Assembly (NCBI RefSeq): GCF_030734285.1
Contig: NZ_CP132294.1
Location: 3,348,001-3,412,000, forward strand
From: Natronococcus sp. AD-5
Lineage (GTDB): Archaea > Halobacteriota > Halobacteria > Halobacteriales > Natrialbaceae
Direction of reading: 5' to 3'
Length of the DNA stretch: 64,000 nucleotides
The position numbers and the translations under genes were made by a program. How positions within the stretch are numbered: position 1 is the stretch's first letter; every line of letters begins with the position of its first letter. Below, piece by piece: positions 24,313 to 27,877 of this stretch. Under the pieces are notes generated by a model. The model was not told the DNA's origin, ran no database searches, and saw nothing but the letters and a program-made list of their open reading frames with translations.

Positions 24313-25170
24313 ATGATCGTCAGCGGATCCGCGTCGCAGTCGCTCGCCGCGGCGCTCGCACGCGAACTCGAGGAACCGCTCGCCGCCGTCGAGTACGACC
24401 GCTTCCCCGACGGCGAACTGCTCGCGGCCGCGCCGGGCGTCGCGGAAGCCGACGCCGACCGGGCCGTCGTCGTCGCCTCGACCGTCTCGAGCGACGCCCA
24501 CCTCGAGGTGCTCCAGCTACAGGACGCCGCTCGAGAGGCGGGCGCCGGCGAGGTCGTGACCGTCCTGCCGTACATGGGGTACGGCCGTCAGGACGAGGCC
24601 TTCGAGCCGGGCCACCCGATCTCCGCGCGGGCGGTCGCCCGTGCTATCTCGACCGGCGCGGACCGCGTGTTCACCGTCAACCCCCACGAGGAGGCCGTCT
24701 GTCGGTTCTTCGAGCCGTCGGCGACCGCCGTCGACGCCGCCGATCGGCTGGCCGAGCCCCTCCCGGACGGACTCGAGGACCCCGTCTTCCTCTCGCCGGA
24801 CGCGGGAGCGATCGAACTCGCGGAGACGGTCCGCGACGCCTACGGTGCGGGCGAGACGGACTACTTCGAGAAGACCCGCCACTCCGGTACCGAGGTCGAG
24901 ATCTCCCCGAGCGACGTCGCCGTCGCGGATCGGGACGTCGTCGTCGCCGACGACATCATCGCGACGGGGTCGACGATGAGCGAGGCCGTCGGCGTCCTCG
25001 AGGAGCGCGGCGTCGGACGCATCTTCGTCACCTGCGTCCACCCGCTGCTCGCGCGCGACGCCGTGACGAAGCTCTCGAAGGCCGGTGTCGAGACGATCTA
25101 CGGAACCGACACCATCGAACGCCAGCACAGCGCCGTCTCGGTCGCGCCGACGATCGCCGAGCAGTTATAG
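24313..25170 (+). CDS. prs: Ribose-phosphate pyrophosphokinase
   Basis: A 285-residue PRPP synthetase that makes 5-phosphoribosyl diphosphate from ribose 5-phosphate and ATP, feeding nucleotide, histidine and tryptophan synthesis. Landmarks are YDRFPDGE near the N-terminus, 'VLPYMGYGRQDEAFEPGHPI' (the ATP/ribose-binding region), and the PRPP loop VVVADDIIATGSTM. At ~285 residues it matches the shorter archaeal class. The ATG at 24313 begins the homologous sequence. Confidence 0.95.
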   Translation: MIVSGSASQSLAAALARELEEPLAAVEYDRFPDGELLAAAPGVAEADADRAVVVASTVSSDAHLEVLQLQDAAREAGAGEVVTVLPYMGYGRQDEAFEPGHPISARAVARAISTGADRVFTVNPHEEAVCRFFEPSATAVDAADRLAEPLPDGLEDPVFLSPDAGAIELAETVRDAYGAGETDYFEKTRHSGTEVEISPSDVAVADRDVVVADDIIATGSTMSEAVGVLEERGVGRIFVTCVHPLLARDAVTKLSKAGVETIYGTDTIERQHSAVSVAPTIAEQL

Positions 25171-25276
25171 CGTTCTCGATCAGTCTCTCTCCTGAACTGT
25201 TAAGTGCTCGCTCCGCCCAGTTCTAGTCGTTCGAGCGGCGCATCGACCGCGTCGCAGTCACCGCTACACTCGTCAG

Positions 25277-25819
25277 ATGCACGGAATCGTCCACAAGTCA
25301 CTGAAATCGTACGTCGTCGAGAAAGCCGGCGACGAGACGTGGAACGCGATCGTCGAGCGGGCGAACATCGAGCCGACGCTGTACCTGCCGATCTCGCGCT
25401 ACGACGACGCGGAGGTCGACGCCGCGCTCTCCGCGCTCGCGTCGATGGCCGTCCAGGACCGGCCCGCGATCGAGCGCGACTTCGGGCGGGCGCTCGCGCC
25501 GGAACTGCGCTCGACGTTCGACGCCCATCTCGACGGCGAGGCCGGACTGCTGGAGTTCCTCGTCTCGATCGAGACGATCACCGCGAACGTCGAGCGGACG
25601 ACGGAGGAGACGACGCTTCCGGACGTCACCTGCACGCGAGAGCGCGACCGAGCGGTCGTGGTCCGCTACGACTCCCACCGCGACTACTGCGACCTGGCCC
25701 GCGGCGTGCTCGAGGGACTCGTCGCCGAGTTCGACGCCGCGGCGACCGTCACGGAACGAGCGTGCACCCGGAGCGGAGCGGACGACTGCGCGTTTCTGGT
25801 CGAACTCGAGCGTCCGTAA
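25277..25819 (+). CDS. H-NOX-like (heme NO-binding fold) protein lacking the proximal histidine
   Basis: A 180-residue protein that starts MHGIVHKSLKSYVVEKAGDE, the typical opening of the H-NOX (HNOB) family. It aligns without gaps, from memory, to the Thermoanaerobacter H-NOX around the heme pocket: Pro115 and the YxSxR motif (Tyr131, Ser133, Arg135, in YDSHRDYC) are in register. The heme-ligating histidine at position 102 is replaced by Thr102 (IETITANV). The C-terminal 'CTRSGADDCAFLVEL' also resembles V4R-type domains. It stands alone without a cyclase or histidine kinase partner. It may sense a ligand other than heme-bound NO, or use another axial residue. Fold confident; function open. 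Confidence 0.75.
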   Translation: MHGIVHKSLKSYVVEKAGDETWNAIVERANIEPTLYLPISRYDDAEVDAALSALASMAVQDRPAIERDFGRALAPELRSTFDAHLDGEAGLLEFLVSIETITANVERTTEETTLPDVTCTRERDRAVVVRYDSHRDYCDLARGVLEGLVAEFDAAATVTERACTRSGADDCAFLVELERP

Positions 25820-25837: not shown

Positions 25838-27877
25838 TCACCGCCGTCGCGCCAGCAGAAGAGCCGCGACGGCGAGCGCCGCGAGCGCGACTGCACCGCC
25901 GAAGCCGGGAATCGCCTCGAGCCGCGACAGCGCGCCGCCGACCGTAACCGTCACCGATCGGTCGGCGACGGCGACCTCGTAGCGGCCGTCGTCCGCGAAC
26001 GTCAGCGTCGCGTCGACCGTCGTTCGCTCGCCGGGTGCGACCGATACCGGCCGCTCGACGGTCTCGTCGCCGGTCCGGAACTCGAGGACGGCCGCACCGG
26101 GACGGGAGTCGGCGGCCGCGACCGTCGCGGTCGCCGTCACCGGATCGCCGGGATCGGCCCGTTCGGGCTCGACCGCGAGATCGGTCACCCGAACGCTCGA
26201 GGGAGACCGAACGAGCACCGCGAACCGATCGTCACCGACGCGAACGGCGTACTCGCCGGGTTCCGAGGGCGTCCAGGCGAGCGACGTCGTCGTCCGTTCG
26301 CCGGACTCGAGTGCGAGCTGGTGATGGTCGACGATCTTCCCGTCGACCGCCAGGGTGGCGTCGGCGGTGCCGTCCCGATCGTCGACGTTCTCGAGGGCGA
26401 CCGGAACCGCGACGGGTTCGCCGACGGGCACAGGAACGGGCGAGCCGTCGCCCTGCCCGGCTGGGCGGTCCCAGGGCTCGCCGGCGACCTCGAGCCCCTC
26501 CCCGTCCAGCCCGGTCGTGATGGCTGGGGCCTCCAGATCGAACGCGTCCCCGTGATCCCGTCGGTGCCAGGCGGTGGGAGCCTCGGGAGTCCGCGTGTAC
26601 CGCTCCGCGGTCGACCGGACGTCCGACCCGCCCGCGTCCTCGACGGCCTCGAGGAACGCGCGTTCGGTGACGCGGTCGCCGCGAGCGCTCAGCGCCCGGA
26701 AGACGTCCGCGAGCGTCCGGTCGCCGTCGGTTTCCACCCGAATCTGACGATCGAGTTCGCCGTAGACGAGCGGCCCCTTCACGTAGGCGGTTCGCTCGCC
26801 AGTCCAGGTTCCGGGATCGGCGAGGACGTCGTCCGCGTAGGGCGAGCGCTCGCCGCGCTCGAGAACCGAGCGGAACTCGCGGAAGTCGATCGATCCCTGC
26901 TCGAGCGCGAGCGTCGCCGCGTAGTACTCGGCCTGCGCTTCGACGAGCCAGGCGGTCTCGGTCGCCGTTCCGACGTCGGGGTTGGCGTACGGCTGTCGCG
27001 TGTGGACGTACTCGTGGAGCCAGACGCTCGGCGCGTCCTCGAGCGACGCGTCGGCGACGACCCACGCGTCGGATTGCCCGTACTGAATGCCGCGGGCCGC
27101 CCAGTCGACGTCGTCGGGGACCGCGACGACGAACACCTCGTCGTGGCTGGCGCCGACGTCGAGGCTCGCGCTCGCGGCGGCGAGGGTCTCGAGGACGTCG
27201 TCGGGATCCTCCCGGAGGTCGGCGGCCGCGGGAACGGCCAACCGGATCGTCTCGCCGGCGACCGTCCGCTCGTACTCCGCTACCTCGCCGAAGAAGGCGA
27301 TGTCGCCGCCGGTCGCGCCGGGGCCCTCGACGGTAACCGTCTCCTCGTGACCGACGGGATCGGTCCGCTGGAGGGAGATCCCGACCGACGGGACCCGGAC
27401 GACTCCCCAGTCGCCGGTGTCGACGAACGTGTAGCCGCGCTCGGCCGATCCGGCCGTTCGTTCCGCGCCGGTCGTCGCGGCCGAGCCGTCGCGGTGGCCC
27501 TCGTATCCCGTCCGGTCCGTCGGCATCGTAAACCGGATCGTCGGTTCGTCGTCGCCGGTCCAGCGGTACGCGCCGTCGTCGGTTCGTTCGAAGCCGTCGG
27601 TCGTCGAGACGGACGCCTCCGACTCGAGGTCGACCTCGAACTCGCTCACCGAGTCGGGCACGCGAAACGTCGTCTCCGTCTCGAACGTGTCACCTCGCTC
27701 GGGAAGGTGTCGAAGGACGGTCGTTCGGTGGAGGACGTCCGAAGCCGTCGCCGGCGACGCGGTGACGGCCGGCTCGGCGAGCGAGTACTCGGGAGTGCGT
27801 CCCGTCTCGAGCCCCGCGACCCCCGCCGGCAACGATCCGATCAGGAGAACCGTAACGACGACGACCCGGTAGTTCAC
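25838..27877 (-). CDS. Secreted gluzincin metallopeptidase with PGF-CTERM anchor
   Basis: A 679-residue exported protein. It has an N-terminal signal sequence (hydrophobic residues ~4-20), a beta-rich N-terminal domain, and a zinc peptidase core near 300-350: HEYVH, with a downstream 'WLVEAQAEYYAATLALEQG' supplying the probable third ligand Glu. This resembles M61/M1-like gluzincins. Residues ~480-640 hold two CARDB-like domains. The C-terminus, IPGFGGAVALAALAVAALLL followed by ARRR, is a PGF-CTERM signal, processed by archaeosortase A to attach the protein to the cell surface. Substrate unknown. Confidence 0.88.
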   Translation of the reverse strand: MNYRVVVVTVLLIGSLPAGVAGLETGRTPEYSLAEPAVTASPATASDVLHRTTVLRHLPERGDTFETETTFRVPDSVSEFEVDLESEASVSTTDGFERTDDGAYRWTGDDEPTIRFTMPTDRTGYEGHRDGSAATTGAERTAGSAERGYTFVDTGDWGVVRVPSVGISLQRTDPVGHEETVTVEGPGATGGDIAFFGEVAEYERTVAGETIRLAVPAAADLREDPDDVLETLAAASASLDVGASHDEVFVVAVPDDVDWAARGIQYGQSDAWVVADASLEDAPSVWLHEYVHTRQPYANPDVGTATETAWLVEAQAEYYAATLALEQGSIDFREFRSVLERGERSPYADDVLADPGTWTGERTAYVKGPLVYGELDRQIRVETDGDRTLADVFRALSARGDRVTERAFLEAVEDAGGSDVRSTAERYTRTPEAPTAWHRRDHGDAFDLEAPAITTGLDGEGLEVAGEPWDRPAGQGDGSPVPVPVGEPVAVPVALENVDDRDGTADATLAVDGKIVDHHQLALESGERTTTSLAWTPSEPGEYAVRVGDDRFAVLVRSPSSVRVTDLAVEPERADPGDPVTATATVAAADSRPGAAVLEFRTGDETVERPVSVAPGERTTVDATLTFADDGRYEVAVADRSVTVTVGGALSRLEAIPGFGGAVALAALAVAALLLARRR

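Follow-up and report, generated by a model that had tools for sequence, protein, structure and literature searches.

H-NOX proteins are sensors that normally detect nitric oxide (NO) or oxygen with a heme held by one histidine. In canonical members NO displaces this proximal histidine, the Fe–His bond breaks and the two subdomains rotate (PMC7108781). When 598 proteins homologous to Vibrio H-NOX were surveyed, the proximal histidine was absolutely conserved (PMC7108781), and its replacement by Phe or Cys in sGC beta1 abolishes heme binding and leaves cyclase activity in place (PMC9914232). A second site is formed by three cysteines, which are zinc ligands in the H-NOX proteins of Shewanella, Vibrio and Caulobacter (residues 138, 163 and 171 in the last) and are also found in many heme-binding members of the family (PMC7108781, PMC12329717). 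Oxidation of the zinc-site cysteines activates the heme-free H-NOX of Vibrio cholerae (PMC7108781), and in Caulobacter H-NOX it is cysteine oxidation, not NO, that activates (PMC12329717).

Here we describe an H-NOX gene from Natronococcus sp. AD-5 whose product lacks the proximal histidine. The gene lies in a window of 64,000 nucleotides, which is the whole stretch of DNA analysed. We searched 394 haloarchaeal genomes, sampled at the level of the class, and found a homologue at E ≤ 0.001 in 87 of them. The intact aligned ORFs comprised 69 orthologues that share the loss (hereafter His-less; matching the window protein at E ≤ 1e-30) and 33 more distant, His-bearing paralogues. The His-less type is found in, among others, Natrinema, Natronorubrum, Halopiger, Natrialba, Natrarchaeobius, Halobiforma, Halovivax and Halostella. 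A search confined to open-access literature found no paper naming both H-NOX and haloarchaea.

H-NOX ancestry and fold of the window protein

The ORF runs exactly from 25277 to 25819 on the plus strand, starts with ATG and encodes 180 amino acids, with Thr at the proximal-ligand position 102. The opening residues M1-H2-G3 are common to 69/69 His-less orthologues in the alignment, which indicates that the start codon call is right. Pfam HNOB (PF07700) matched residues 2–159 of the protein, scoring 93.6 bits where the cut-off is 25.5 (E 1.7e-26), and phmmer against PDB sequences gave full-length matches to Shewanella H-NOX 4u99 (1.3e-13) and Nostoc Alr2278 (1.7e-8). An AlphaFold model, for which 60 haloarchaeal sequences served as input, had a mean pLDDT of 94.7 and a pTM of 0.90, and the best PDB matches returned for it by Foldseek were H-NOX structures (TM 0.89 to 4u99 and 0.87 to 2o09). 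An NCBIfam search of the protein yielded sub-threshold matches only, such as MsvR. An initial annotation of this DNA had proposed a kept H-NOX fold from the letters alone, and structure prediction and structural matching bear it out. Ancestry and fold make the window protein an H-NOX; heme ligation does not.

The proximal histidine was lost once in a haloarchaeal clade

Codon 102 (25580–25582, plus strand) encodes Thr, and both phmmer and the MAFFT alignment of the family place Thr102 opposite the proximal His of Shewanella and Nostoc H-NOX, in agreement with the assignment of position 102 in the initial annotation. The Shewanella alignment has a one-residue gap beside this column. A shifted His masked by misalignment was rejected, because helix 91–108 of the AlphaFold model, which carries residue 102, contains no His in the window protein, and Nostoc and most orthologues are ungapped there. 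We also rejected His84, which the initial annotation had named as a possible alternative, as a substitute ligand, since it sits in the loop before this helix and is found in most His102-bearing paralogues as well.

The replacement is clade-wide. His102 was absent from all 69 aligned orthologues, which carry Tyr (38), Ala (10), Thr (8), Val (8), Arg (2) or Ser, Ile or Leu (1 each), and was kept in 33/33 haloarchaeal paralogues; the other archaeal H-NOX proteins checked, from the same phylum, also have the proximal His. In the paralogues position 102 is an invariant His, whereas among the His-less proteins its entropy is 2.01 bits (70th percentile). With column 102 removed, the His-less proteins were monophyletic in a 104-row tree (SH-aLRT 100) and in a thinned 72-row tree whose outgroup comprised Shewanella, Nostoc and other archaeal H-NOX (bootstrap/SH-aLRT 100/100, with the clade present in every bootstrap tree). 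Deep branches of the clade uniformly carry Tyr102, many residues occur on the derived Natrialbaceae branches, the window protein included, and the thinned tree requires at least 14 changes at this position within the clade. His102 was therefore lost once, ancestrally in the His-less clade; the ancestral His is inferred from the outgroups, whose long branches leave the exact root unsure. The loss probably went from His to Tyr, with Tyr afterwards replaced repeatedly, by drift, with Thr, Ala, Val and others.

The uniform Tyr102 of the deep branches would also suit a differently ligated heme, in an unusual redox or gas sensor whose ligand would be Tyr102 (in the 38 Tyr members) or possibly His6 (in all). 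Tyr can ligate ferric heme. His6 (codon 6, 25292–25294, plus strand), on helix A of the AlphaFold model, occurs in 66/69 His-less proteins and 0/33 His-bearing paralogues, and it stands beside position 5, which in H-NOX proteins of known structure lines the distal pocket. However, with Thr in the window protein and Ala, Val, Ile or Leu elsewhere, position 102 holds no conserved ligand, and we consider a heme of this kind distinctly unlikely.

NG86 dN/dS values for 12 pairs ranged from 0.04 to 0.48, the maximum belonging to the window gene and its counterpart in G266; on these values we rejected a pseudogene. Purifying selection acts on the fold, the propionate motif, the proximal Pro, the hinge glycines and usually the three zinc-site cysteines.

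The pocket, the propionate motif and the hinge are retained

Pro115 (25619–25621, plus strand) aligns with the retained proximal-pocket proline, and within the segment YDSHR (codons 131–135, 25667–25681, plus strand) Tyr131, Ser133 and Arg135 align with the YxSxR heme-propionate motif, in the comparisons with Shewanella and Nostoc and in the MAFFT family alignment; the numbering given in the initial annotation is correct. The full set, with Ser or Thr at 133, is present in 60/69 His-less proteins. Among the 31 members with a residue other than Tyr at 102, Arg135 and Tyr131 are invariant and P115/Y131/[ST]133/R135 is complete in 30. Arg135 is lost in five Tyr102-bearing members, and Phe occupies position 131 in two. 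Gly70 and Gly143, matched by numbering offset to the hinge glycines described between the subdomains of Vibrio H-NOX (PMC7108781), are invariant in both His-less and His-bearing groups. Gly147 is likewise invariant, and P115, Y131, R135, G70, G143 and G147 all fall at 0–0.5 bits of entropy in the His-less clade. Over pocket positions taken from the literature, side-chain volumes summed to 2313 ± 42 Å3 in the 31 non-Tyr members as against 2362 ± 98 Å3 in the His-bearing paralogues, and hydrophobicity was close too.

The near-complete motif of the non-Tyr members suggests that the pocket may still bind a carboxylate-bearing ligand. A metal-free porphyrin, a porphyrin precursor or a lipid would be held by Tyr131, Ser133 and Arg135 with no iron–protein bond, and its occupancy would be the signal. 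The little-altered volume and hydrophobicity of the pocket point the same way, as do the activation of heme-deficient sGC by protoporphyrin IX (PMC9914232) and the crystallization of the sGC activator BAY 60-2770 in Nostoc H-NOX (4iae). The Tyr-bearing members without Arg135 and the two with Phe131 argue against such a sensor; moreover, conservation of the motif could be structural, and sequence identifies no ligand. We regard a tetrapyrrole or other carboxylate sensor as somewhat unlikely.

The same pocket bears on the idea that a protein without the His resembles one that has bound NO and released its His, and so is a constitutively ‘on’ scaffold that would bind its partner independently of any ligand, much as the sGC alpha H-NOX domain. 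There is precedent in sGC alpha, a known heme-free pseudo-H-NOX (PMC8196705), and in the displacement of the proximal His by which NO acts on canonical H-NOX (PMC7108781). A pure scaffold, however, would need neither an unchanged hydrophobic pocket nor YxSxR, and a second H-NOX for pairing is often absent, as in the genome of the window, where this gene is the single HNOB gene; we therefore think a scaffold of this type very doubtful. Obligate pairing with a His-bearing H-NOX in the style of sGC alpha/beta is, with one HNOB gene only in that genome, unsupported.

A cysteine site is the candidate input

The window protein has four cysteines, at 119, 138, 163 and 171. Three align with zinc ligands of Shewanella H-NOX, all on the plus strand: Cys138 (25688–25690) with Cys139, Cys163 (25763–25765) with Cys164 and Cys171 (25787–25789) with Cys172. 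The initial annotation had read the Cys-rich C-terminus as a hint of V4R modules, and it is better explained by these zinc/redox cysteines, common to many heme-binding H-NOX proteins. All three are kept in 60/69 His-less proteins and in 38/38 Tyr102 members. Cys138 and Cys163 are lost only together, in 9/69 proteins from two lineages, and so behave as one site; because these nine retain the gene and YxSxR, the Cys site is not a universal function of the clade. Where bacterial H-NOX has a His or Gln as its fourth zinc ligand, the window protein has Glu160 (25754–25756, plus strand). Most of the His-bearing haloarchaeal paralogues have Glu here too; the residue in the His-less clade is mainly Glu or Lys (Lys or Arg in half), so that zinc binding is only a prediction.

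As the proximal His is missing, the Fe–His bond-break trigger is gone, and the His-less proteins probably sense or act by a route other than heme–His. The sequence is consistent with the natural reading, already offered in the initial annotation, of a heme-free or differently ligated sensor. A Cys/zinc redox switch agrees with the kept hinge and Cys site, as a carboxylate ligand does with the kept YxSxR and the unfilled pocket, and the two can coexist. For the window protein we rank the Cys-redox reading above the carboxylate ligand because of the experimental precedent in heme-free Vibrio H-NOX. We tentatively favour, at somewhat less than an even chance, a heme-His-independent (‘pseudo’) H-NOX whose most likely input would be the Cys138/Cys163/Cys171 site. 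Oxidation of these cysteines, or loss or gain of a metal at the site, would turn the subdomains relative to each other at the Gly70/Gly143 hinge. Such a movement has been proposed for the heme-free H-NOX of Vibrio cholerae and, on Cys oxidation, for that of Caulobacter; helices displaced in this way would bind or release a presumed partner. A literature search for an H103G mutant of Shewanella H-NOX found none.

The gene occupies a fixed place behind prs

The constant upstream neighbour is prs, encoding a ribose-phosphate diphosphokinase (PRPP synthase) of 285 amino acids (24313–25170, plus strand). In an all-against-all comparison of flanking ORFs, prs was directly upstream on the same strand at 70 His-less-type loci, broken copies counted. 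The three loci without it are L042, at a contig end, and L063 and L067, where ileS is still downstream. On the other side the usual neighbour is a convergent gene (25838–27877, minus strand) for a probable secreted metallopeptidase-like protein with a CARDB domain, followed further on by ileS in most loci; the protein has the zinc-peptidase-like motif HEYVH, and Pfam recognized no peptidase family in it. The flanking comparison placed no prs near the His-bearing copies. In genomes sampled from this family but without the gene, the order prs–(peptidase-like)–ileS persists, and no H-NOX remnant was found. The five sampled congeners of the window's organism (L171–L175) have no H-NOX gene, and between prs and ileS they contain neither an H-NOX remnant nor a match to the convergent peptidase-like gene.

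Upstream of the His-less gene, TTAAGT (25200–25205, plus strand; 77 bp before the start codon) is a likely TATA-type promoter element. This hexamer lies 77–144 bp before the start in 39/70 orthologues, against 0.87 expected from shuffling. It resembles a haloarchaeal TATA element, and the gene would accordingly often have its own promoter element. Such an element in the gap, together with a median spacing of 122 bp to prs, weakens a simple operon with prs. Given the tight link to prs, the first candidate role would lie in or near the synthesis of nucleotide precursors, although the frequent promoter element means that the link may be positional only. In a speculative proposal, the clade turned an H-NOX gas sensor into a different sensor, of a metal-free porphyrin or other carboxylate metabolite or of thiol redox state, and the constant position behind prs ties this sensor to the making of PRPP and nucleotides; taken as a whole, the proposal is unlikely.

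Broken or shortened copies of the His-less gene stand in the usual prs–ileS place in L082 (G052) and L064 (G390), and the gene thus looks dispensable in some species. Patchy occurrence, the five congeners without the gene and the broken copy in L082 would suit a decaying paralogue without function. Selection on the gene goes most of the way to refuting this, and the dN/dS values, residues invariant across two families, the conserved synteny and the recurrent promoter element leave it hardly credible.

The His-bearing paralogues have other surroundings. They form tandem pairs, possibly sensor pairs, in L074, L078 and L081, with a CheD-domain gene near the pair in L081. In L085 (7040–9298) a gene for a methyl-accepting chemotaxis protein (MCP; MCPsignal 3.7e-38) follows the His-bearing gene on the same strand. 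A Pfam scan of some of their neighbours found no constant partner gene.

Comparison with known systems

The His-less clade is a natural, monophyletic and selectively maintained exception to the conservation recorded in the 598-homologue survey (PMC7108781). Its Tyr-then-anything series at position 102, alongside His-bearing paralogues in the same organisms, offers a ready test system for the H-NOX fold without its iron anchor. The clade also lets one ask whether redox signalling by the Cys/zinc site, which to date has been shown in vitro, can stand alone.

V4R, TRAPPC3 and MetOD1 domains have a related fold and, like the window protein, cysteines clustered in the C-terminal half. The V4R resemblance noted at the outset is real, with a Pfam match to V4R (PF02830) over residues 131–176 that scored 25.6 bits, below the cut-off of 31; the link between the families is already known, having been drawn in print for HNOB, V4R and MetOD1 (PMC5847659) and for TRAPPC3, V4R and H-NOX (PMC10933270).

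With the pseudo-H-NOX domain of sGC alpha the window protein shares an H-NOX fold without the proximal His (as in human alpha), heme-free there and presumably so here. Structural similarity is weak (TM 0.50 to 6jt0_A). Unlike sGC alpha, it is a stand-alone archaeal protein of 180 amino acids that keeps YxSxR and the Cys site, and it begins at H-NOX residue 1, without the N-terminal extension that occludes the heme pocket in sGC alpha.

The His-bearing haloarchaeal paralogues (for example, in L066 and L085) are about 27–37% identical to the window protein and share His2, Cys138/163/171 and mostly Glu160. They differ in keeping the proximal His, in their places in the genome (beside the MCP gene in L085), in Leu, Phe, Met or Tyr at position 6 in place of His6, and in Tyr at position 81 in place of Phe81.

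The H-NOX proteins of Shewanella oneidensis, Vibrio cholerae and Caulobacter agree with the window protein in fold, length, P115, YxSxR, the hinge Gly and the three zinc-site Cys. They have a proximal His and a His or Gln as fourth zinc ligand, whereas the window protein has Thr102 and Glu160, and their genes are accompanied by a histidine kinase gene where the window gene has prs upstream.
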